From an uncultured Comamonas sp. (GTDB lineage Bacteria > Pseudomonadota > Gammaproteobacteria > Burkholderiales > Burkholderiaceae_C), in assembly GCA_947306475.1 (NCBI GenBank), contig CAMZGS010000003.1, forward strand, positions 186,001 to 250,000: DNA of 64,000 bases, given 5' to 3'. Both the position numbers and the translations under genes were made by a program. Of this stretch, positions 11,089 through 22,687 are shown in pieces. Every line of letters starts with the position of its first letter. Position 1 is the stretch's first letter. The notes below the pieces were generated by a model. It was not told the DNA's origin and made no database searches. It saw only the letters and a program-made list of their open reading frames with translations.

Positions 11089-11092
<4 letters not shown>

Positions 11093-11736
11093 GTGTCTGC
11101 TTTCGTTGAGTCGGAAGAAGGTGGTGGGTTGGTGGTGACAGGCGGACGTACCGAGGGCACGCCGCCAAAGAACAGGTCGGCCACGATGGGGGCCATGTCC
11201 TCGTAGCTGAGCGAGCCGCCGGGACGAAACCAGGTGAACATCCAGTTGATCATCCCGAACAGCAGCATGGTGGTGGGCTTGTCCAGATGCGCCTGACCCA
11301 GGTGCGGCCACAGCTGCGCCACGGTGCTGGAGAAGGCGTGCGTGACCTGGCGCTCTGCGTTCAGGATGCGTGTCTGGTCCTCTTCGGTGAGGAACTTGAT
11401 GTCCTCCACCAGCACGCGGTGGGCATGCTGCGCCTGGGCGTATTCGACGACGAAGCGGCGGATCAGCTCGCGCAGGCGCGCTTCGGGCTCCAGGCTCTTG
11501 TTCGTCACTTCGCAGACCAGGGCCTGCAGGCGCACCACGTGGTTTTCCGCAATGTTGACCAGCAGGTCGTACTTGTCGCGGAAGTAGTGGTACAGCGCCG
11601 GCTTGGACAGGCCACAGGCCTCGGCCACGCCATTCATGGACGTGGCCGAGTAACCGCGCTGGGCAAACAGCTCGGCAGCGTGCGACAGGATCAGCTCGCG
11701 CTGGTCTTCGTATCCGGATGAGCGTCCTCGGGCCAT
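11089..11736 (-). CDS. paaR: TetR-family repressor of the phenylacetate genes
   Basis: A 215-aa TetR protein. The N-terminal helix-turn-helix spans residues ~12-58 (ILSHAAELFAQRGYSATSMNGVAEACGLSKPALYHYFRDK), followed by a helical ligand domain. An AAGGAGGAATACCC leader sets the ATG at 11736. It is cotranscribed and translationally coupled with paaJ, which implies autoregulation. TetR-type PaaR is the usual regulator of paa genes in betaproteobacteria, with phenylacetyl-CoA as the effector; that is family knowledge. Likely operators are the palindromes at 17966-17979 and 20946-20959. Confidence 0.82.
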
Positions 11737-11854: not shown

Positions 11855-12940
11855 TTAGCGCTCGTCGAACGACAGCACCACCTGGGCGGAGATGGGGCGG
11901 CACTGGCAGGTGAGGATGAAGCCGGCATCGACCTCGTGCTGGTCCAGGGCAAAGTTGCGCTCCATGCGCACTTCACCTTCCAGGCACTTGGCGCGGCAGG
12001 TGCCGCACACGCCCGAGGTGCAGGAAAACGGTACTTCCAGCCCGGCGGCCGATGCGGCATCCAGGATGCTGGGCTGCTCCTTGTGGAAGCTGAACTCGCG
12101 CTTGAGGCCATCGCGCACGATGGTGATCTGCGCGCGCTCGGCGTCGCCGGGCTGCGCCTGGTGCACAGCCGCGCCCACCTGGCCGGCGGCCGACAGCGCC
12201 ACGCCAAAGCGCTCGATGTGGATGCGCTCCTGCGGCACGCCGGCGGCCAGCAGGGCGGCCTGGGCTTCGTCGTTCATCTGGAAGGGGCCGCAGACAAAGA
12301 CTTCGCTGATCTGGGCGGGCTGCACCACGCTGGATAAAAACTCGCCCACCTTGTCGCGGTTCATCAGGCCCATGTTGATGGGCGCTTCGGTGTCCTCGCC
12401 GGAGAACACATGGTGCAGCGCCACGCGTGTGAGGTAGCGGTTCTTGAGGTCTTCCAGCTCTTCTTTGAACATGGTCGACTGCAGCGTGCGGTTGGCGTAC
12501 AGCAGCGTAAAGCGGCTGCCCGGCTCGCGCGCCAGCGCCGTCTTCATGATGGACAGGATGGGCGTGATGCCGCTGCCGCCGGCAATGCCCAGGTAGTGGC
12601 GCTGCGCGCCGGGGTCCAGCGGCACGTAGAAGCGCCCTTGCGGGGCCATGACCTGAATGGTGTCGCCCACCTTCAGGTGGCTGTGGATCCAGTTGGAAAA
12701 CAGACCGCCATTGACGCGGCGCACGCCCACGCGCAGATGCTCGTCATCGACGCCTGCGCAGATGGAGTAGGAGCGGCGCACGTCCTGGCCGTCGATGGTG
12801 GTGCGCAGTGTCAGGTACTGGCCCTGGATGAAGCCGAACACCTGGCGCAGCTCGGGCGGCACTTCGAAGGAGACGATGACGGCCTCGGCGGTATCGGGCT
12901 CGATGGCGCTCACGCGCAGGGGGTGGAAGGAGACGCTCAT
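11855..12940 (-). CDS. paaE: Phenylacetyl-CoA epoxidase reductase subunit
   Basis: A 361-aa reductase that passes electrons from NADPH through FAD and a 2Fe-2S centre to the PaaA diiron site. The FAD-binding signature is RSYSICAGV and the nucleotide-binding stretch is GIAGGSGITPILSIMK. A plant-type ferredoxin domain sits at the C-terminus, with cysteines in CTSGVCGTCRAKC and a fourth in ILTCQC. This FNR-then-ferredoxin order is the PaaE arrangement. The reductase at 15807-16841 has the opposite order. The ATG at 12940 is preferred over an in-frame codon six residues upstream. Confidence 0.92.
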   Translation of the reverse strand: MSVSFHPLRVSAIEPDTAEAVIVSFEVPPELRQVFGFIQGQYLTLRTTIDGQDVRRSYSICAGVDDEHLRVGVRRVNGGLFSNWIHSHLKVGDTIQVMAPQGRFYVPLDPGAQRHYLGIAGGSGITPILSIMKTALAREPGSRFTLLYANRTLQSTMFKEELEDLKNRYLTRVALHHVFSGEDTEAPINMGLMNRDKVGEFLSSVVQPAQISEVFVCGPFQMNDEAQAALLAAGVPQERIHIERFGVALSAAGQVGAAVHQAQPGDAERAQITIVRDGLKREFSFHKEQPSILDAASAAGLEVPFSCTSGVCGTCRAKCLEGEVRMERNFALDQHEVDAGFILTCQCRPISAQVVLSFDER

Positions 12941-12974: not shown

Positions 12975-13562
12975 TCAGATGGGCTTGAAGTGCTCGAACG
13001 GCTCGTGGCAGCTCAGGCACCGGTACAGCGCCTTGCAGGCGGTGGAGCCAAAGGCGGACAGGCGTTCGGTGCGGGGGCTGGCGCAGTGCGGGCAGGGCAC
13101 GCCGGGCGCCTGGCGCCGGGGCATGAAGCGGATGGGCACGCCTTGCTCGGGGGCCACGGGGCCGGGCGGGGCAATGCCGTAGGCGCGCAGCTTTTGGCGT
13201 CCAGCCTCGCTGATCCAGTCGGTGGTCCAGGCCGGGGCGCGCTGCAGCAGCACACGCGCCGGGCCCAGGCCTGCGGCGTCGATGGCCGCCAGTACGTCGG
13301 ACTCGATCACCTCGGTGGCCGGGCAGCCGCTGTAGGTGGGGGTGAGCACGATCTCCAGCACGCCGCCCTCCAGGCTGTGGCCTTCGGCCAGGCGCACATC
13401 GCGCACGATGCCCAGGTCGCACAGCGAGACGGCCGGCACCTCCGGGTCGAGCACGGTGTGCAGCACCTGCCAGGCCTGCGCGAGGCGGTCGTCGCTGGGC
13501 GACAGCTGCGGCGCAGGCGCGCTGGGGGCGTGCAGGGGAGTGAGCTCAGGCAGGTTCACCAT
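12975..13562 (-). CDS. paaD: Phenylacetyl-CoA epoxidase Fe-S assembly protein PaaD
   Basis: The 195-aa product has an N-terminal MIP18/DUF59 domain (LDPEVPAVSLCDLGIVRDV, then LTPTYSGCPATEVIESDVLAAI). A C-terminal treble-clef-like zinc ribbon has four cysteines in CPHC and CLSC. PaaD is needed for maturation of the epoxidase, probably its Fe-S or diiron cofactor. The ATG at 13562 overlaps the end of paaC by seven bases. Confidence 0.9.
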   Translation of the reverse strand: MVNLPELTPLHAPSAPAPQLSPSDDRLAQAWQVLHTVLDPEVPAVSLCDLGIVRDVRLAEGHSLEGGVLEIVLTPTYSGCPATEVIESDVLAAIDAAGLGPARVLLQRAPAWTTDWISEAGRQKLRAYGIAPPGPVAPEQGVPIRFMPRRQAPGVPCPHCASPRTERLSAFGSTACKALYRCLSCHEPFEHFKPI

Positions 13563-14329
13563 GCGCCTCCGGGGTAGCAGCGCTGCAGGTACTGCATCTC
13601 GGCCAGGATGTAGCCCATGTGCTCGCTGTGGCGACCCAGCTTGCCGGTGCTGCGGAACCTGATCTCCTGGCTGGGCAGCGGCAGATCGGCGGCAGAGAGC
13701 ATCTGCTGCACGTCTTCCAGCCACGCCTCGCGCAGATCGGCCCAGCGCGGGCCCAGGCCGCTGGCCAGGGCGGCCTCATCGATGTCGTCGCTGCTGAACA
13801 GCTCGGCGGTGTAGGGCCACAGGGTATCGAGCGCGGCCAGCGTGCGCTGGCGCGATTCGGCGGTGCCGTCGCCCAGGCGCACCACCCAGTCGCCTGCGTG
13901 CTGCTGGTGGTAGCGCGCTTCCTTCAGCGCCTTGCCGGCAATGGCGGCCAGCTCGGCGTCGCTGGAGTGCTGCAGGCGCTGCCACAGGTGCTTGAGCAGC
14001 GTGGCCAGCAGCGCATTGCGCAGGGTGGTGAAGGCAAAGTCACCGCGCGGCAGCTCGGCCATGGTGACGTTGAAGTAATCGCCCTCGTCGCGCAGGAAGG
14101 CCAGCTGGTCTTCATCGTGGCCACGGCCATCGATGGCGCCGGCGTGCGTGAGCACGGCGCGCGCCTGGCCGATCAGGTCCAGCGCCATGTTCGACAGGGC
14201 AATGTCTTCTTCCAGGATGGGGGCGTGGCCCGACCACTCGCACAGGCGCTGGGCCAGGATCAGACAGGTATCACCCAGACGCAGCAGGTAACGGAAGGCG
14301 GGATCGGTGCCGATGCGGATACTTTGCAT
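13556..14329 (-). CDS. paaC: Phenylacetyl-CoA epoxidase structural subunit PaaC
   Basis: A 257-aa ferritin-like subunit that pairs with PaaA but lacks a functional metal centre in known homologues. Recognisable stretches are LGDTCLILAQRLCEWSGHAP, DIALSNMALDLIGQAR and KALKEARYHQQHAGDWVVRLGDGT. Length agrees with the family (~250 aa). It sits between paaB (14-bp gap) and paaD (overlap) in the canonical paaABCDE order. Confidence 0.93.
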   Translation of the reverse strand: MQSIRIGTDPAFRYLLRLGDTCLILAQRLCEWSGHAPILEEDIALSNMALDLIGQARAVLTHAGAIDGRGHDEDQLAFLRDEGDYFNVTMAELPRGDFAFTTLRNALLATLLKHLWQRLQHSSDAELAAIAGKALKEARYHQQHAGDWVVRLGDGTAESRQRTLAALDTLWPYTAELFSSDDIDEAALASGLGPRWADLREAWLEDVQQMLSAADLPLPSQEIRFRSTGKLGRHSEHMGYILAEMQYLQRCYPGGAW

Positions 14330-14343
14330 GTGCTGCCCTTGCC

Positions 14344-14661
14344 TTACATGTGGTTCACGGCCTGGGGCAGGACGTAGAAGGTGGGGTGGCGGTAGATCTT
14401 GTCCTCGGCCGGGTCGAAGTACATGTCCTTGTCACCCGGGTCGCTGGCCACGATCTGGTCGGAGCGCACCACCCAGACGCTGGTGCCTTCCTGGCGGCGG
14501 GTATAGACATCGCGCGCCATCTGGATGGCCATCCTGGCGTCGGCAGCGTGCAGGCTGCCGCAGTGCTTGTGGTCCAGGCCCGCCTTGCTGCGGACGAAGA
14601 CTTCCCACAGCGGCCATTCGGTGGCGGTGGTGGGATTGGTGGTGGGGCTGGAGGTGCTCAT
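14344..14661 (-). CDS. paaB: Phenylacetyl-CoA epoxidase subunit PaaB
   Basis: A 105-aa small subunit carrying the PaaB signature WPLWEVFVRSKAGLDHKHCG and the C-terminal KIYRHPTFY. In characterised systems it bridges PaaAC heterodimers. The ATG at 14661 gives an N-terminal Ser/Thr-rich extension of about 16 residues. An upstream ATG at 14718 is less likely because it falls in repeat-like sequence (a half copy of the dispersed repeat at 14691-14704). Confidence 0.9.
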   Translation of the reverse strand: MSTSSPTTNPTTATEWPLWEVFVRSKAGLDHKHCGSLHAADARMAIQMARDVYTRRQEGTSVWVVRSDQIVASDPGDKDMYFDPAEDKIYRHPTFYVLPQAVNHM

Positions 14662-14750
14662 GGGGAGTGACTCGTTTACTTCAAATTCAGTAGCTGTAGG
14701 CGCTGGTGTATTCAGCACTTCAGATTGGTTTGTTGCTTTTTTTCAGGAAA

Positions 14751-15761
14751 TCAGGCCGCAACGCGCTCCTGTTTTTCCTGCTTGGAGGCATGAGCCAGGG
14801 CGGCTTCGCGCACCCAGGCGCCTTCTTCCCAGGCCTTGACGCGGGCGCTCAGGCGCTCGCGGTTGCACGGGCCGTTGCCGCCAATGACTTGCCAGAACTC
14901 GTCCCAGTCGATGGCGCCAAAGTCAAAGTGCTGGCGCGCTTCGTTCCATTTCAGATCGGGGTCGGGCAGCTGCACGCCCAGCACCTCGGCCTGGGGCACG
15001 GTGGCATCGACAAACTTTTGGCGCAGCTCATCGTTGGAGATGCGCTTGATGCCCCAGCGCATGGACAGCGCGCTGTTGGGCGATTGGTCGTCGGGCGGGC
15101 CAAACATCATCAGCGACGGCCACCACCAGCGGTTGACCGCGTCCTGCACCATGGCGCGCTGCGCGTCGGTGCCCTTTTGCATCATCACCAGCAGCGCGTC
15201 GTAACCCTGGCGCTGGTGGAAGCTTTCCTCGCGGCAGATGCGCACCATGGCGCGCGCATAGGGTGCGTAGGAGCAGCGGCACAGCGGGACCTGGTTCATG
15301 ATGGCGGCGCCATCGACCAGCCAGCCAATCACGCCCACGTCGGCCCAGGTCAGCGTGGGGTAGTTGAAGATGGAGCTGTACTTGGCACGGCCCGAGTGCA
15401 GGGCATCCAGCATCGCATCGCGGCTGGTGCCCAGGGTCTCGGCGGCCGAGTACAGGTACAGGCCGTGGCCGCCTTCGTCCTGGATCTTGGCCAGCAGAAT
15501 GGCCTTGCGCTTGAGGGTGGGCGCGCGCGTGACCCAGTTGCCCTCGGGCAGCATGCCCACGATCTCCGAGTGGGCGTGCTGGCTGATCTGGCGCACCAGG
15601 GTCTTGCGGTAGTGCTCGGGCATCCAGTCCTTGGCTTCGATGAAGTCGCCGGCATCGATGCGTGCGTCAAAACGCTCCTGCAACCGCGCTTCTTCGGCGC
15701 TGCGCGGCACGGGGGCCTGCGTCGCGTCTTTGCCCATGGTGTCCATGGCTTGGGTGTACAT
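14751..15761 (-). CDS. paaA: Phenylacetyl-CoA epoxidase catalytic subunit PaaA
   Basis: The 336-aa diiron subunit inserts oxygen into phenylacetyl-CoA to give the 1,2-epoxide. Metal ligands visible in the four-helix bundle are E66 (HSEIVG), E96xxH99 (DEGGHG), D150 (WLVDGA) and E179xxH182 (REESFHQ). It is slightly longer than the E. coli protein (309 aa) because of an N-terminal extension. A GAAGGAACC ribosome site precedes the ATG at 15761. It follows the extra diiron/reductase pair in the operon. Confidence 0.94.
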
Positions 15762-15806
15762 GGCGGTTCCTTCTCAATCTCAAAAAAGCAAAACGTGGCC
15801 CGGGGC

Positions 15807-16841
15807 TCATGCCTGGGCAAAGAAGCCCTCGGTGTGGATCAGCTCGGGCTTGGCGCCCAGCGTCTTGGCGGCGGCCACGCAGTCGTCCACAAAGGCGGTG
15901 CTGCCGGCCACGAAGACGCTGAAGCTGCTCAGGTCCGGGAAGTGCTGGCCCAGGATGGCCGGGATGCGGCCGTGCAGCATGCCCTCCTGCTGCTCGCGCG
16001 TCAGGGTGGGCAGGTAGCGGAAGTTGGGGTAGCGCGTCTGCCAGTAGTGCATCAGGCCGACGTCGTACAGGTCGGCAGCCTCGCGCGCCGAGAACATCAA
16101 GGTCACCGGCTGCTTGTAGCCCCGGCGCAGCGCCGCTTCGGTCAGCGACAGGATGGGCGCCAGGCCCGAGCCGGCGGCCAGGCACAGCACCGGGGTGTCC
16201 ACCGACGGGTCGCCGATGAAGGTGCCGTGCGGGCCGGAAAAGCGCAGCTGCGTGCCCAGCGGCACCTCGTCGTGCAGCCAGCGGCTGGTGCGGCCGGCCA
16301 GGGGGTTGGCCTCGTCGGCCTCTACGCGGGTGACGTGCAGGCGGATTTCGCCATCGGGGCGCGGGGCGTGTGCCAGGGAGTAGCTGCGCACCGGGATGCC
16401 CTTGCTGGTGTCGCCCAGCTGCACGTACTGGCCGGGCCAGAAGCGCATGGGCTCGCCCAGGGGGCGCAGCACAAATTCGGTAATGCGGGGCGTGCGCACG
16501 ATGCGATCGACCAGGATGGCGTACTGCGATTCACGCACCGGAAACAGTTGGGGCTTGGCGTCCTCGGTGCCCCATTCGATTTCGAGCTCCTCGGACAGCG
16601 GTTTGGCCATGCACATCAAGCCGTAGCCTTGGGCGCGCTCGTCCTGCGACAGCGCCATGTCGAGCACGAAACCCTGATCGAACTGGCCCGAACGCACCTT
16701 GACCTTGCATTCGCCACAGGCGCCGGCACGGCAGTTGTTGGGCAGGGCATAGCCCGCACGTTCGAGGGCCTCGAGCACGGTCTGGCCGTTGTCGCATGCG
16801 ACGGTTTGCCCGGAGGGATACAGCTTGATGTGGGTGGTCAT
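15807..16841 (-). CDS. Ferredoxin-FAD-NAD(P)H oxidoreductase, partner of the adjacent diiron protein
   Basis: The 344-aa protein has a plant-type 2Fe-2S domain at the N-terminus (C37, C42, C45, C77 in CRAGACGECK and GLMCMAK). An FAD domain (RSYSLAHAP) and an NAD(P)-binding domain (CLAAGSGLAPILSL) follow. This order is that of phenol/methane/naphthalene oxygenase reductases and the reverse of PaaE, so it is not a paaE duplicate. The gene is 58 bp downstream of the diiron protein gene and upstream of paaA. It most likely feeds electrons to that diiron protein. The substrate is unknown. Confidence 0.85.
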   Translation of the reverse strand: MTTHIKLYPSGQTVACDNGQTVLEALERAGYALPNNCRAGACGECKVKVRSGQFDQGFVLDMALSQDERAQGYGLMCMAKPLSEELEIEWGTEDAKPQLFPVRESQYAILVDRIVRTPRITEFVLRPLGEPMRFWPGQYVQLGDTSKGIPVRSYSLAHAPRPDGEIRLHVTRVEADEANPLAGRTSRWLHDEVPLGTQLRFSGPHGTFIGDPSVDTPVLCLAAGSGLAPILSLTEAALRRGYKQPVTLMFSAREAADLYDVGLMHYWQTRYPNFRYLPTLTREQQEGMLHGRIPAILGQHFPDLSSFSVFVAGSTAFVDDCVAAAKTLGAKPELIHTEGFFAQA

Positions 16842-16899
16842 GGTTACTCTGGTGTAGAGAAAAAGGTCTGAAAAGCCAACGAAAGGCGTGTTGCGTTGC

Positions 16900-17925
16900 T
16901 TAGAAGACGGGGATGATGTCTTCCATGTCGACGTCCGAGATCTCCTGGCCGGTGATGTCCACTTCAGGGATGGCCGGGAAGGGGATGTCGTACTTGTCCA
17001 GCACACCCTTGAGGTTCAGGATGGCGGTGCGCCAGTTGTTCTTCTTGGCTTCGTACTCGGGGATGGCAAAGCCGGCGGCACGGGCCACGGCCTCGCCGTC
17101 GCGCTGGTTCTGGATGAAGTCGTCGGGCAGGTCCCAGAACTCCATCGGCGGCTCAAACAGCACGGCCGACAGGAACAGGTAGCCAGCACGGATCTGCTTG
17201 GTGATCAGGGAGCGGTCTTCCACGGCGATCTTGGGGTAGTCGCGCTCCATCAGTGCCAGGCAGATGCCCATGTGGCGGCCTTCGTCCTTGCCGATGTTGC
17301 GGAAGGCTTCCTTGAACACCGGCTCGGTGCAGCCGGCGGCCATCTGGTGGAAGATGGTGGCCGCAGCGATCTCGCCCATCAGGAAGGAGCTGAACAGCAC
17401 CGCCAGGCTGTACTTGGGCACAGCGGTCTTGTAGCCATTCCAGTAGCGCGCGCCGTTGTGGTAGAGCCACTTGGCGTTCTTCTGCAGGCGCTTGCCCAGT
17501 TCGGTCTTGGGCGTGTAGGTGAGCGGATCGGGATGCTCCAGGAACCTGGTGATGGCCATGCCGCACATCTGTTCGTGGTTCTGCTCGTCCTGCGTCACGC
17601 TGAAGAAGCAGCGGCGCACGGCATCCTCTTCGTGCGCTTCATAGGTCTTGATCAGGGCCGAGGCAAACACCGGGGGCGCAGAAGCATCGAACACCGACAG
17701 CAGTGTCCACCAGTAGGCGATGGCTTCGCGTTGCTCCCAGGTGTATTTGTTGACGTCAAAGGTGTCCCAGGGCAGCTTCTTGGGGTCCCAGACCTCGCGA
17801 CGCGAGGCGTCCCAGATCTCTTCCAGCTTCTTCGTGTGCTGGTGCCACGACAGCGGATAGACGTTGGGCTGCTCGATGGCTGGCGGGAACTCCATTTTCT
17901 GGGCCAGTTTTTCTTTACTACTCAT
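16900..17925 (-). CDS. Ferritin-like diiron protein of R2/oxygenase type, substrate unknown
   Basis: A 341-aa protein with the R2-type diiron pattern: acidic helix residue (D80 or a nearby Glu), E114xxH117 (DEQNHEQ), E185 (MGEIAA) and E215xxH218 (DEGRHMG). It is not PaaA, BoxB or PaaC by motif or length. An AGGAGAC ribosome site supports the ATG at 17925. A perfect palindrome 41 bp upstream suggests direct control by PaaR. With the adjacent reductase it should form a two-component oxygenase or an N-oxygenase/desaturase-like enzyme acting on a phenylacetate-related compound. That role is inference. Confidence 0.75.
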   Translation of the reverse strand: MSSKEKLAQKMEFPPAIEQPNVYPLSWHQHTKKLEEIWDASRREVWDPKKLPWDTFDVNKYTWEQREAIAYWWTLLSVFDASAPPVFASALIKTYEAHEEDAVRRCFFSVTQDEQNHEQMCGMAITRFLEHPDPLTYTPKTELGKRLQKNAKWLYHNGARYWNGYKTAVPKYSLAVLFSSFLMGEIAAATIFHQMAAGCTEPVFKEAFRNIGKDEGRHMGICLALMERDYPKIAVEDRSLITKQIRAGYLFLSAVLFEPPMEFWDLPDDFIQNQRDGEAVARAAGFAIPEYEAKKNNWRTAILNLKGVLDKYDIPFPAIPEVDITGQEISDVDMEDIIPVF

Positions 17926-17965: not shown

Positions 17966-17979
17966 ACCGACCGGTCGGT
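17966..17979. promoter_or_regulatory. Perfect palindromic operator, probable PaaR site
   Basis: ACCGACCGGTCGGT is identical to its reverse complement and ends 41 bp upstream of the diiron gene start. The same half-sites (ACCGA/TCGGT) recur with a different centre between paaG and paaN. A TTGATA-like -35 lies on its upstream side, so binding would block RNA polymerase. The PaaR assignment is inferred from context. Confidence 0.75.
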
Positions 17980-18092: not shown

Positions 18093-19406
18093 TCAGCGCG
18101 GCCGCTGGTCGATCACGCGGCGGGCCTTGCCCACCTGGGTGCGTTCGATGGCGCCGTAATCCAGCACCTCCACCTTGGTGGTGATGCCCACCATGGTCTT
18201 GATGCGGTGCTGCAGCCAGTCGCGGATGGTCTGTACGTCCTCGGCGCTGTTGCGCGCGCCCGCCTGCAGCTCACAGCGCACGGTCACCTTGTCCAGGTTG
18301 CCATCGCGCGTGACGTTGAGCTGGTACTGGCCGGAGAGCTGGTTGTGCTGCAGCACGATCTCCTCGATCTGCGTGGGGAACATGTTCACGCCACGGATGA
18401 TGAGCATGTCGTCCGAGCGGCCCACGATCTTGCCCATGCGGCGGAAGCTGCGCGAGGTGGGCGGCAGCAGGCGCGTCAGATCGCGCGTGCGGTAGCGGAT
18501 CATGGGCAGCGCTTCCTTGCTCAGCGAGGTGAAGACCAGCTCGCCCTCGGAGCCATCGGGCAGCACTTCGCCGGTGTCGGGGTCGATGATCTCGGGGTAG
18601 AAATGGTCCTCCCAAATCACCGGGCCGTCCTTGCTTTCCACGCACTCGCTGGCCACGCCGGGGCCCATGATTTCGGACAGGCCGTAGATGTCCACCGCGT
18701 CGATGCCGGCCTTGCTCTGGATGTCGTGGCGCATGGCCTCGGTCCAGGGTTCAGCGCCAAAGATGCCGACCCGCAGCGAGCTTTCACGCGCATCCATGCC
18801 CACGCGCTGGAACTCTTCAATGATCACCTGCATGTACGAAGGGGTGACCATGATGATGTCGGGCTTGAAGTCCTGGATCAGCTGCACCTGCTTTTCCGTC
18901 TGCCCGCCGGACATGGGCACCACCGTGCAGCCGGCACGCTCGGCGCCGTAGTGCGCGCCCAGGCCGCCGGTGAACAGGCCGTAGCCGTAAGCGATGTGCA
19001 CCGTGTCGCCTGGGCGGCCGCCTGCGGCGCGGATGGAGCGCGCCACCAGATTGGCCCAGTTGTCGATGTCCTTGGCGGTGTAGCCCACCACCGTCGGCTT
19101 GCCCGTGGTCCCCGAGGAGGCGTGGATGCGCAGGATCTGGTTGCGCGGCACGGCAAACATGCCGAAGGGGTAGTTGTCGCGCAGGTCCTTCTTGTAGGTG
19201 AAGGGGAACTTGGACAGATCGGCCAGGGTTTTCAGGTCGCTGGGGTGCACGCCCTTCTCGTCGAAAGCCTTGCGGTAGTGCGGCACGTTGTCGTAGGCGT
19301 GCTGCAGCGACCAGCGCAGACGCTGCAGCTGCAGGGCCTGGATTTCATCGCGGCTGGCGGTTTCGATGGGGTCAAGCGCCCCGGGGGCCGGACGGGTAGC
19401 GGTCAT
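18093..19406 (-). CDS. paaK: Phenylacetate-CoA ligase
   Basis: The 437-aa AMP-forming ligase activates phenylacetate with ATP and CoA, the committed first step. The phosphate-binding motif HASSGTTGKPTVVGY is at residues ~95-109. The acyl-adenylate motif is seen as DIYGLSEIMGPGVASE, and the C-terminal hinge includes RGVNMFPTQIEEIV. Length agrees with PaaK. It is 167 bp upstream of the diiron gene and cotranscribed with paaI and paaG. Confidence 0.95.
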   Translation of the reverse strand: MTATRPAPGALDPIETASRDEIQALQLQRLRWSLQHAYDNVPHYRKAFDEKGVHPSDLKTLADLSKFPFTYKKDLRDNYPFGMFAVPRNQILRIHASSGTTGKPTVVGYTAKDIDNWANLVARSIRAAGGRPGDTVHIAYGYGLFTGGLGAHYGAERAGCTVVPMSGGQTEKQVQLIQDFKPDIIMVTPSYMQVIIEEFQRVGMDARESSLRVGIFGAEPWTEAMRHDIQSKAGIDAVDIYGLSEIMGPGVASECVESKDGPVIWEDHFYPEIIDPDTGEVLPDGSEGELVFTSLSKEALPMIRYRTRDLTRLLPPTSRSFRRMGKIVGRSDDMLIIRGVNMFPTQIEEIVLQHNQLSGQYQLNVTRDGNLDKVTVRCELQAGARNSAEDVQTIRDWLQHRIKTMVGITTKVEVLDYGAIERTQVGKARRVIDQRPR

Positions 19407-20061: not shown

Positions 20062-20865
20062 TCAGCGGTCGCTGAACTGCGGGGCGCGCTTTTGCGTGAA
20101 CGCCAGCACCCCCTCGCGGTAATCGTTGGCGTGGCCCAGGCGGCGCTGGAGCTCGGCCTCCTGCGCCAGGGCGGTGGGCCAGTCCATGTCCAGGGCGGCA
20201 TCCATCGCGGCGCGCGTGGTCACCAGGGCTTTGGTGGGCATGCTGGCCAGGCGTTGCGCCAGGGCCTGGGCTTCGCTGGCCAGGGCCTCGTCTTCCACAC
20301 AGCGCCAGATCAGGCCCATGCGCTGCGCCTCTTCGGCGCTGAGCTTGTCGCCCAGCAGCGCCAGCCCCAAAGCGTTGGCGCGGCCCACCAGGCGCGGCAG
20401 CAGCCAGGTGCCGCCGCTGTCGGGCAGCAGGCCAATCCTGGCAAAGGCCTGGATAAAGCTGGCCGAGCGCGCGGCCAGCACCAGATCGCAACCCAGGGCA
20501 ATGCTGGCACCAGCGCCAGCGGCCACGCCGTTGACGGCGGCAATCACCGGCACCGGCATGGAGCGCAGACGCAGGCACAGCGGGCGGTAGAAGCGCTCGA
20601 CCACGTCGCCCAGATCCTTGGACGGGGCGCCCGGCGTGGTGTCGGGGGCGACCACGGGGTCGGCCAGGTCCTGCCCCGCGCAAAAGCCGCGCCCGGCGCC
20701 CGTCAGCACCACGCAGCGCACGCTGCTGTCGGCAGCGGCTGCATCCAGGGCGGCCAGCAACTGGGCGTGCAGTTCGGTGGTGAAGCTGTTCAGCGCGTTG
20801 GGACGGTTCAGGGTGAGGGTCTGGACGGCGCCAGCCTGGGACACCAAAACGAGGGATTCAGACAT
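20062..20865 (-). CDS. paaG: 1,2-epoxyphenylacetyl-CoA isomerase
   Basis: The 267-aa crotonase-fold enzyme converts the ring epoxide to the oxepin-CoA and also shifts double bonds later in the pathway. The oxyanion hole stretch is GAGRGFCAGQDLADP. The catalytic Asp lies in GLLPDSGGTWLLPRLVG, as in PaaG, where Asp replaces the hydratase Glu. Length matches the family. It is the first gene of the minus-strand operon. The ATG at 20865 is 81 bp from the operator. Confidence 0.92.
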   Translation of the reverse strand: MSESLVLVSQAGAVQTLTLNRPNALNSFTTELHAQLLAALDAAAADSSVRCVVLTGAGRGFCAGQDLADPVVAPDTTPGAPSKDLGDVVERFYRPLCLRLRSMPVPVIAAVNGVAAGAGASIALGCDLVLAARSASFIQAFARIGLLPDSGGTWLLPRLVGRANALGLALLGDKLSAEEAQRMGLIWRCVEDEALASEAQALAQRLASMPTKALVTTRAAMDAALDMDWPTALAQEAELQRRLGHANDYREGVLAFTQKRAPQFSDR

Positions 20866-20945
20866 GGGAGCAGGGGGGGATGTGGCCAGGAAAATGGATA
20901 AACAGACGGCGAAAGTTGTTTTGCGATAAATCAAAAATACATTTG

Positions 20946-21031: not shown

Positions 21032-22687
21032 ATGAGCCTGTTCGACACCCACCGCGCCTTGCTCGATGGCGCCCTGGCTGCCAGCGCTTCGCGCGCTTAC
21101 TGGTCGCCGTTTCCCGAGAACGCCTCGCCCAAGATTTACGGCGAAACCGCGCAGGCCGACGGCCAGGCGGCCGTAGAGGCTCTGCTGGGTAAGGACTACC
21201 CCTTGCAGCAGCCCGGCGAGGTCGGGCGCATCGCCACCGAGCAATCGCCCTATGGCGTCGATATCGGCGTGCGCTACCCCGAATGCAGCGCCGAGGCCCT
21301 GATCGCCGCCGCGCAAGCGGCCGAACCGGCCTGGGCCGCACTGGGTGTCCAGGGCCGTGTGGGCGTGCTGCTTGAAGCGCTTACCCGCATCCACCAGCGC
21401 AGCCACGAAATTGCCCATGCCGTGATGCTGACCACCGGCCAAGGCCCGATGATGGCCTTCCAAGCCGGCGGCCCGCACGCGCAAGACCGCGCCCTGGAAG
21501 CCATTGCCTACGCCTACAAGGCCATGGCCGACGTGCCCACCGAAGCCACCTGGGAAAAGCCCCAGGGCAAAAACCCGCCGCTGGTGATGAAGAAGCACTT
21601 TGACATCGTGGGCCGTGGCATTGGCTTGGTGATTGGTTGCGCCACCTTCCCGACATGGAACACCTACCCCGGCCTGTTTGCCACGCTGGCCACGGGCAAC
21701 CCGGCCATCGTCAAACCCCACCCCAACGCCGTGCTGCCTGCCGCGATTACGGTGAGCATCCTGCGCGAGGTGCTCACCGAGCAAGGGCTGGACCCCAACC
21801 TGGTGACGCTGGCCCTGTCCAACGACCCGGCGCACACCCAGGCGCTGGCCAAGAGCCCAGCGGTGGCCAGCATCGACTTCACCGGCAGCAACCAGTTTGG
21901 CCGCTGGCTGCAGGACAACGCCCGCCAGGCGCGTCTGTATGCCGAGATGGCTGGGGTGAACACGGTCATCATCGAATCGACCGACCAGTACCAGGCCATG
22001 CTGAACAACCTGGCCTTCACCCTGTCGCTGTACAGCGGCCAGATGTGCACCACCACGCAAAACATCTACATCCCCAAGAACGGCATCCAGACCGACCAAG
22101 GCACCAAGAGCTTTGACGAGGTCTGCAACGACCTGGCCGCCGCCGTGCGCCAGCTGGTGGACAACCCGCGTGTGGCCACCGCCGTGCTGGGCGCGGTGTG
22201 CGCGCCAGAGACCGTGGCACGCATCGAAGCAGCCAGCAGCAAGGGCCGCGTGGTGCTGGCCTCGCAAGCTCTGCCCCATCCGCAGTACCCCAATGCGCGC
22301 ATCCACAGCCCGGTGATCGTGGCGCTGAGCGAGGCCGATCGCGCCACCTTTGCCAACGAGTGCTTTGGCCCGATCTCCTTCCTGATCGCCACCGATTCGC
22401 GCGACAGCGCCCTGGAGGTGGCCCAGTCCACCCTGAGCGAGCACGGCGCTTTGACGCTGGGCGTGTACTCCAGCGACCGCGCCTTCATCGAGCGCACAGT
22501 GCAGCTGTCGCGCCGCGCGCGCGTGGCCCTGTCCATCAACCTGACGCAAGGCGTGTACGTGAACCAGTCGGCCGCGTTCTCGGACTACCACGCCAGCGGC
22601 GGCAACCCCGCAGCCAATGCCAGCTACACCACTCTGGCGTTTGTGGCCGACCGCTTTGTCGTCGTGCAGCGGCGCGAGCATGTGTGA
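21032..22687 (+). CDS. paaN: Phenylacetate degradation aldehyde dehydrogenase-family protein PaaN
   Basis: A 551-aa ALDH-superfamily protein in the position where other bacteria have paaZ. It lacks the C-terminal MaoC hydratase domain of PaaZ, so it would only oxidise the ring-opened semialdehyde. The oxepin-CoA hydrolase must come from another gene. Recognisable segments are GLVIGCATFPTWNTYPGLFATLATGNPAIVKPH, the NAD-site FTGSNQFG and the catalytic Cys region YSGQMCTTTQNIY. An AGGAGAC site sets the ATG at 21032. It is divergent from paaG, with the PaaR-like dyad between them. Confidence 0.9.
   Translation: MSLFDTHRALLDGALAASASRAYWSPFPENASPKIYGETAQADGQAAVEALLGKDYPLQQPGEVGRIATEQSPYGVDIGVRYPECSAEALIAAAQAAEPAWAALGVQGRVGVLLEALTRIHQRSHEIAHAVMLTTGQGPMMAFQAGGPHAQDRALEAIAYAYKAMADVPTEATWEKPQGKNPPLVMKKHFDIVGRGIGLVIGCATFPTWNTYPGLFATLATGNPAIVKPHPNAVLPAAITVSILREVLTEQGLDPNLVTLALSNDPAHTQALAKSPAVASIDFTGSNQFGRWLQDNARQARLYAEMAGVNTVIIESTDQYQAMLNNLAFTLSLYSGQMCTTTQNIYIPKNGIQTDQGTKSFDEVCNDLAAAVRQLVDNPRVATAVLGAVCAPETVARIEAASSKGRVVLASQALPHPQYPNARIHSPVIVALSEADRATFANECFGPISFLIATDSRDSALEVAQSTLSEHGALTLGVYSSDRAFIERTVQLSRRARVALSINLTQGVYVNQSAAFSDYHASGGNPAANASYTTLAFVADRFVVVQRREHV

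Follow-up and report, generated by a model that had tools for sequence, protein, structure and literature searches.

We have analyzed a 64,000-nucleotide stretch of DNA from an uncultured Comamonas sp. (contig CAMZGS010000003.1), in the following called the window, in which two extra genes are located between paaK and paaA of a phenylacetate operon. Their products, a diiron protein (DI) and a reductase (RED), probably form a two-component phenylacetyl-CoA ring oxygenase (epoxidase), which can stand in for the canonical 1,2-phenylacetyl-CoA epoxidase PaaABCE or, as in the window, back it up. The two genes are arranged as follows:

16900-17925, minus strand: DI, open reading frame of 341 residues, a predicted R2-fold diiron protein and the proposed oxygenase/hydroxylase component
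15807-16841, minus strand: RED, 344 residues, a Fer2-FAD-NAD reductase by domain search and the proposed electron donor of DI

The evidence comprises gene content, pairing, synteny, operator-like sites, the predicted fold of DI, and the absence of PaaA from genomes that have kept the downstream genes. The substrate and its epoxide, the path of the electrons, the binding of regulators and the role at low oxygen are inferred. In this scheme RED would take electrons from NAD(P)H and pass them via its FAD and 2Fe-2S centre to DI; the diiron site of DI would activate O2 and epoxidize the ring of phenylacetyl-CoA, and the product would enter the usual route through PaaG and then PaaZ or PaaN. In some lineages DI-RED would act in place of PaaABCE by a different protein architecture, and in others, including the Comamonas of the window, DI-RED and PaaABCE would be isoenzymes that PaaR or PaaX controls in response to phenylacetyl-CoA, often with FNR-type low-oxygen control in addition. 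Somewhat more cautiously, we consider it likely that DI-RED is a second phenylacetyl-CoA ring-1,2-epoxidase, which consists of a single R2-fold diiron protein with its reductase and has no detectable sequence relation to PaaA. In several proteobacterial and campylobacterial lineages it would have replaced PaaABCE, in others it would operate alongside it, and many denitrifiers and microaerophiles would use it to run the O2-dependent hybrid pathway at scarce oxygen.

A scan of one genome per species has yielded 227 stretches encoding a DI relative, and the best 80 of these 227 have been used for the locus and genome counts. At least two recognizable paa genes have been found near DI in 37 of the 80 loci (32 of the 55 loci with at least 19 kb of DNA), so that the pair is conserved beside paa genes, as its proposed link to phenylacetate had implied. 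PaaA gives no match at E ≤ 1e-3 in 25 of the 80 genomes, among which PaaG is over its profile cut-off in 19, and PaaN or PaaZ in 22 by hand tally. A side-product or hydroxylated analogue, which had been suggested as the substrate, is disfavored by this pattern: these 25 genomes keep the pair without PaaA, mostly together with the downstream genes, as would be expected of an enzyme for the main epoxidation step. Six further genomes whose PaaA matches are weak or partial (G119, G126 and G138 from Bacteriovoracia and Oligoflexia, G145 and G150 from Azospirillum, and G101 with a fragment) have been left out of the strict PaaA-less 25 and kept in the 31 of the FNR comparison described below. The PaaA-like proteins of G119, G126 and G138, all metagenome-assembled genomes (MAGs), are divergent (107-120 bits), and in G126 and G138 the gene adjoins a PaaG-like gene; these genomes may hold a divergent paa operon.

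An alternation of DI and PaaA has been observed in a family set of 104 genomes built around an Arcobacter MAG (the set names, Arcobacteraceae here and Burkholderiales for the order sample below, are presumed). DI occurs in eight of these genomes, PaaA in one, and PaaG at E ≤ 1e-70 in nine (seven over cut-off); the nine PaaG genomes are the eight with DI and the one with PaaA, which has no DI. In the PaaA-bearing genome the order paaF-G-H-I-J-K-paaX is followed by paaE-D-C-B-A, and in two DI-bearing relatives (L116, L117) paaG-H-I-J-K-paaX is followed by DI-RED; in a third (L118) paaG, paaH and paaX are visible. In a sample of the window's order, DI is present in 9 of 399 genomes, the window's own included, with PaaG over cut-off in 9/9 DI-bearing genomes vs 65/390 of the others (Fisher 1.7e-7). 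PaaA at E ≤ 1e-60 has not been found in six of these nine, all of which have paaN-paaG-paaH-paaI beside DI and paaA unmatched in the stretch; two of the six (G441, G543) are single-contig assemblies. Two Tepidiphilus isolates (L122, L123) carry an otherwise intact cluster, paaJ-paaR-paaK-paaI-paaH-paaG/paaN-paaY, without paaEDCBA, which in Azoarcus (L120) stands between paaR and paaK, the point where Tepidiphilus has none. No PaaA match at E ≤ 1e-3 has been found in either Tepidiphilus genome, and their DI-RED lies elsewhere in the genome, preceded by PaaR-like and FNR-like sites.

The predicted regulatory sites would connect the pair to the phenylacetate pathway. Two PaaR-like sites are relevant in the window:

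17966-17979: PaaR-like operator, a perfect 14-bp palindrome, ACCGACCGGTCGGT, 40 bp upstream of the DI start codon
20946-20959: second PaaR-like site with two mismatches, in the divergent paaG/paaN gap

With up to three mismatches the palindrome has six matches in the window against 2.3 expected, the copy at 17966-17979 being the sole perfect one. Upstream regions of 300 bp have been compared for 77 loci, three of the 80 having been left out for less than 200 bp of upstream sequence, and the palindrome (at most two mismatches) is present in 23 of these 77, as compared with a mean of 0.03 and a maximum of 1 in 60 shuffles. The PaaR-like operator, originally proposed to tie the pair to phenylacetate, has its counterparts in these relatives; 17 of the 23 palindrome-bearing promoters belong to the 35 loci without a recognized paa gene. 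With a PaaR-like operator upstream and a TetR-family regulator in the cluster, DI-RED would belong to the PaaR regulon. The gene for PaaX (TIGR02277 over cut-off) lies beside DI in an Azospirillum (L059), and a PaaX-like protein is encoded beside it in Arcobacter (243 bits, cut-off 265). PaaR and PaaX are described as recognizing or responding to phenylacetyl-CoA in passages of an earlier paper (PMC4424350). Three observations are explained most simply if the pair makes the intermediate that PaaABCE makes: the retention of PaaG and of PaaN or PaaZ in genomes without PaaA, the alternation of DI with PaaA in the Arcobacter set, and the operator that DI-RED still carries when far from other paa genes.

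A second motif, the FNR-like box TTGAN6TCAA, has been found in 31 of the 77 DI upstream regions, far above the 200 shuffles (mean 0.44, maximum 3) and random segments (mean 0.57, maximum 3), although these boxes are spread over 13 of 48 genus-level groups only. For comparison, a box within 300 bp upstream has been found for 33 of the 1027 other open reading frames (at least 150 residues) in these loci and for 2 of 14 paaA genes. The box is commoner in genomes with PaaA over cut-off (27/48) than in those without (4/29; Fisher 2.7e-4, uncorrected for relatedness). Palindrome and box occur together in 14 DI loci, in 10 of which they are 28-29 bp apart. These boxes suggest a use of DI-RED at low oxygen in many relatives, the window excepted.

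Regarding the strength of this interpretation, a number of observations weigh against it. PaaA is over cut-off in 49 of the 80 DI-bearing genomes (25/38 plus 24/42), so that DI-RED is an addition in the majority, and for 35 of the 80 loci no paa gene has been recognized in the flanking DNA examined. The PaaA-less genomes include several MAGs, which may be incomplete, the species counts ignore relatedness among genomes, and neither PaaN nor PaaZ is over cut-off in 4 of the 40 PaaA-less or PaaA-weak DI-bearing genomes examined. Since PaaG has a second role in the phenylacetate pathway, its presence alone does not prove an epoxide. Concerning oxygen, no FNR-like box has been found in the DI promoter of the window, and seven of the 15 paa regions compared (L120-L123, L125, L126, L128) have palindrome and box together in the paaG/paaN gap as well, so that the box is not specific to DI. 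The box as the mark of a dedicated low-oxygen isoenzyme is weakened by its position at the main paa promoter in these seven regions; given the same two sites there, the whole phenylacetate pathway rather than DI-RED alone may respond to oxygen in Azoarcus- and Tepidiphilus-type bacteria. The proposed role under O2 limitation is supported by the boxes of many relatives, while the DI promoter of the window itself has none.

The absence of PaaA as sole evidence has been dropped as weak, since in the order sample PaaA at E ≤ 1e-60 was also not found in 19 of 65 genomes with PaaG and without DI, as compared with 6 of 9 PaaG-bearing genomes with DI (Fisher 0.054). The PaaG regions of all these 19 genomes have served as a control. 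Neither paaN nor paaZ is present in 17 of the 19 regions; L152 has a single match to PaaZ, at 26%, and L135 carries beside paaG both a paaN-type gene and a different PaaA_PaaC-family protein (PF05138, 73 bits). A paaN-paaG cluster without PaaA has thereby been found in 6/6 PaaA-less order genomes with DI vs 1/19 without it. For these 19 genomes paaN and paaZ have been looked for in the PaaG stretches only, and four of the stretches (L142, L146, L150, L151) break off at contig ends and are shorter than 13 kb. A paaK-like gene is present in 6 of the 19 control stretches (L135, L136, L137, L145, L147, L153), and therefore some of these genomes may run phenylacetate by another first step; these limits of the control have slightly lowered our confidence. 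Stand-alone, distant PaaA_PaaC-family proteins of 265-272 residues are encoded beside DI in two Azospirillum (L054:7588-8403, minus strand; L059 near 7636, minus strand) and beside paaG in the DI-less, PaaA-less L135 (7866-8663, plus strand). The L054 protein reaches 85 bits for PF05138 and only 69 bits for TIGR02156, and these proteins could be yet another epoxidase type.

Among the alternatives, the one that survives best, while still unlikely, is that DI-RED oxygenates a related substrate such as a hydroxyphenylacetate, another arylacetyl-CoA or a shunt product and shares only the phenylacetate regulon. The many DI-bearing genomes that retain PaaA fit this proposal, as do distant hmgA-like and FAH-like genes near DI in Azospirillum loci and the 52% homologue of Variovorax sp. 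RA8, which follows a PaaK-like ligase of only 282 bits (cut-off 646) near a weakly BbsB-like thiolase (135 of 750 bits). It leaves unexplained, however, why paaN, paaG, paaH and paaI are kept beside DI where PaaA is absent, and also the DI-or-PaaA pattern of the Arcobacter family set and the Tepidiphilus cluster. An improbable alternative is that DI-RED has an auxiliary function, for example to clear surplus epoxide or O2 or to protect the pathway from peroxide, and that the PaaA-less genomes use an unseen epoxidase. The 49 genomes with both systems are again compatible with it, and the stand-alone PaaA_PaaC-family proteins near paaG (L135) and near DI (L054) indicate that other solutions exist; moreover, a title cited in PMC9765128 states that PaaABCE deoxygenates its own epoxide. 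Yet there would be nothing to assist in the 25 DI-bearing genomes without a PaaA match, and a dedicated NAD-linked reductase fits catalysis.

In DI the proposed ligands E114, H117, E185, E215 and H218 are invariant in an alignment of 43 orthologues, as is Cys121, which stands where E. coli R2 has its radical tyrosine (E115+7); D80 is a further candidate ligand. In profile searches against Pfam and NCBIfam, DI has given no family match at the curated cut-off, its single NCBIfam match reaching 20 bits vs a cut-off of 125. AurF (PF11583) scores 21 bits with the DI of the window, below the gathering score of 29.6, and matches at E ≤ 1 in 43/43 members (best E 4.3e-6); ribonucleotide reductase R2 (PF00268) matches at E ≤ 1 in 26/43 members (best E 1.3e-5), the DI of the window giving no match at this threshold. 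No similarity to PaaA has been found by BLASTP, and no match at E ≤ 1e-3 to TIGR02156, TIGR02158, PF05138 or the BoxB profile. Sequence searches of the PDB have revealed no significant relative (best E 0.046 for DI and 1 for its profile), and in a fold search DI has been aligned with R2lox and ribonucleotide reductase R2 structures at 9-13% identity; PaaA structures were not among the 50 matches listed, which is uninformative either way. In the Vitreoscilla and Variovorax RA8 records the gene is labelled 'hypothetical protein'. A role of DI outside the pathway, as an R2-type radical generator or an R2lox-like oxidase, is very improbable in view of the low identity in these structural-search alignments, the invariant Cys121 in place of the tyrosine, the paa gene context and a ribonucleotide reductase large subunit not noticed nearby, although no search was aimed at one.

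For RED, the domain order Fer2, FAD, NAD differs from the order FAD, NAD, Fer2 of PaaE, as had been predicted from the sequence of the window. It is below cut-off for all 20 NCBIfam families that it matches, including PaaE (119.5 bits, cut-off 420.8), BoxA (23.2 bits, cut-off 459.2), BenC (146/430 bits) and MmoC (110/500 bits). Both proteins are under every curated family cut-off, and the earlier statement that they are neither duplicates of paaABCE nor the BoxAB pair has held. In 80/80 loci RED lies on the same strand downstream of DI with gaps of 0-480 bp (79/80 under a stricter test that demands a gap above 0, as one locus has a gap of 0).

The surrounding genes of the window are the following:

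11089-11736, minus strand: TetR-family regulator (PF00440 and PF17932 over cut-off), the proposed PaaR, a name assigned by position
11855-12934, minus strand: paaE, canonical epoxidase reductase (FAD-NAD-Fer2; TIGR02160 451.9 bits, cut-off 420.8)
12975-14670, minus strand: paaB, paaC and paaD (TIGR02157, TIGR02158 and TIGR02159 over cut-off; start codons of paaB and paaD approximate)
14751-15761, minus strand: paaA, canonical epoxidase subunit (TIGR02156 541 bits, cut-off 280)
18093-19406, minus strand: paaK, phenylacetate-CoA ligase (TIGR02155 731 bits, cut-off 646)
20062-20880, minus strand: paaG, ring-1,2-epoxyphenylacetyl-CoA isomerase (TIGR02280 346.4 bits, cut-off 345.15)
21032-22687, plus strand: paaN, aldehyde dehydrogenase (TIGR02288 853.8 bits, cut-off 578.75), presumably acting in the oxepin-CoA step

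On the minus strand the order is paaG, paaI, paaK, DI, RED, paaA, paaB, paaC, paaD, paaE, the TetR regulator and a 3-oxoadipyl-CoA thiolase, with paaN divergent from paaG. The intergenic gaps are short, 58 bp between DI and RED and 45 bp between RED and paaA, and a shared DI-RED-paaABCDE transcript is therefore likely. A 721-residue open frame at 14706-16871 on the plus strand, antisense to paaA and RED, most likely results from the codon bias of high-G+C DNA.

The closest relatives by DI include Comamonas denitrificans (95% identity), and a strong DI match has been found in 4 of 53 genomes of the own or same genus, where it is consequently rare. Genes for Liv-type branched-chain-amino-acid ABC transporters recur near DI-RED (L036:4352-8890 and Azospirillum loci), perhaps as a phenylacetate or phenylalanine importer. 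More distantly, the actinomycete Nonomuraea gerenzanensis encodes a DI homologue at 48.6% (L099:8001-8978). On plasmid 2 of Variovorax sp. RA8 (L098:4059-10041) the PaaK-like ligase is immediately followed by the 52% homologue and its own reductase. Genes for a thiolase, an enoyl-CoA hydratase, an indolepyruvate ferredoxin oxidoreductase and a Liv-type transporter are nearby, and together they may encode a route for some other arylacetyl-CoA. The wider DI family possibly serves other aryl-CoA esters.

PaaABCE is regarded as the enzyme that defines a widespread pathway of aromatic degradation. In passages of a 2026 survey of 6,536 genomes, PaaA and PaaC are stated to be retained in all 825 ligase-bearing proteomes, and rare 'other configurations' without core epoxidase subunits are reported in paralogs (PMC13186573). 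Among the titles and abstract openings listed by searches of an open-access collection, none has appeared to describe DI-RED, and such a pair is unmentioned in passages of papers on the Aromatoleum EbN1 systems, on Bradyrhizobium microoxia and on an 'atypical oxygenase' of Exiguobacterium, as well as of the 2009 survey of paa clusters. If DI-RED is isofunctional, surveys based on PaaA miss Castellaniella caeni, Tepidiphilus and the DI-bearing Arcobacter relatives. Aryl-CoA epoxidation could then also be studied in a simple system of two proteins, and the pair would serve as a test case of how a dearomatizing oxygenase evolves independently.

Compared with known systems, DI-RED shares with PaaABCE the proposed reaction, the regulon, the operon position, a diiron centre and an NAD(P)H reductase, whereas it has one catalytic protein in place of PaaA, PaaB and PaaC, a reductase of reversed domain order that is not of the PaaE type, and a DI that falls outside the PaaA and PaaC families. 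The R2lox and ribonucleotide reductase R2 proteins differ from DI not only in sequence but also in that DI has its own reductase partner. AurF (p-aminobenzoate N-oxygenase) and VlmB (azoxy synthase) stand in a biosynthetic context, that of DI being catabolic, and their Pfam family is not reached by DI. Bacterial multicomponent monooxygenases, such as those for methane and toluene, have a beta subunit and an effector protein beside the alpha subunit, whereas only DI and RED are located between paaK and paaA. The order Fer2-FAD-NAD is common to RED and the reductases BenC and MmoC, whose curated cut-offs it does not reach. A parallel in design is the benzoyl-CoA 2,3-epoxidase BoxA-BoxB, in which, as proposed for DI-RED, a reductase and a single diiron protein act on an aryl-CoA ester, with components to which neither RED nor DI can be assigned by profile.
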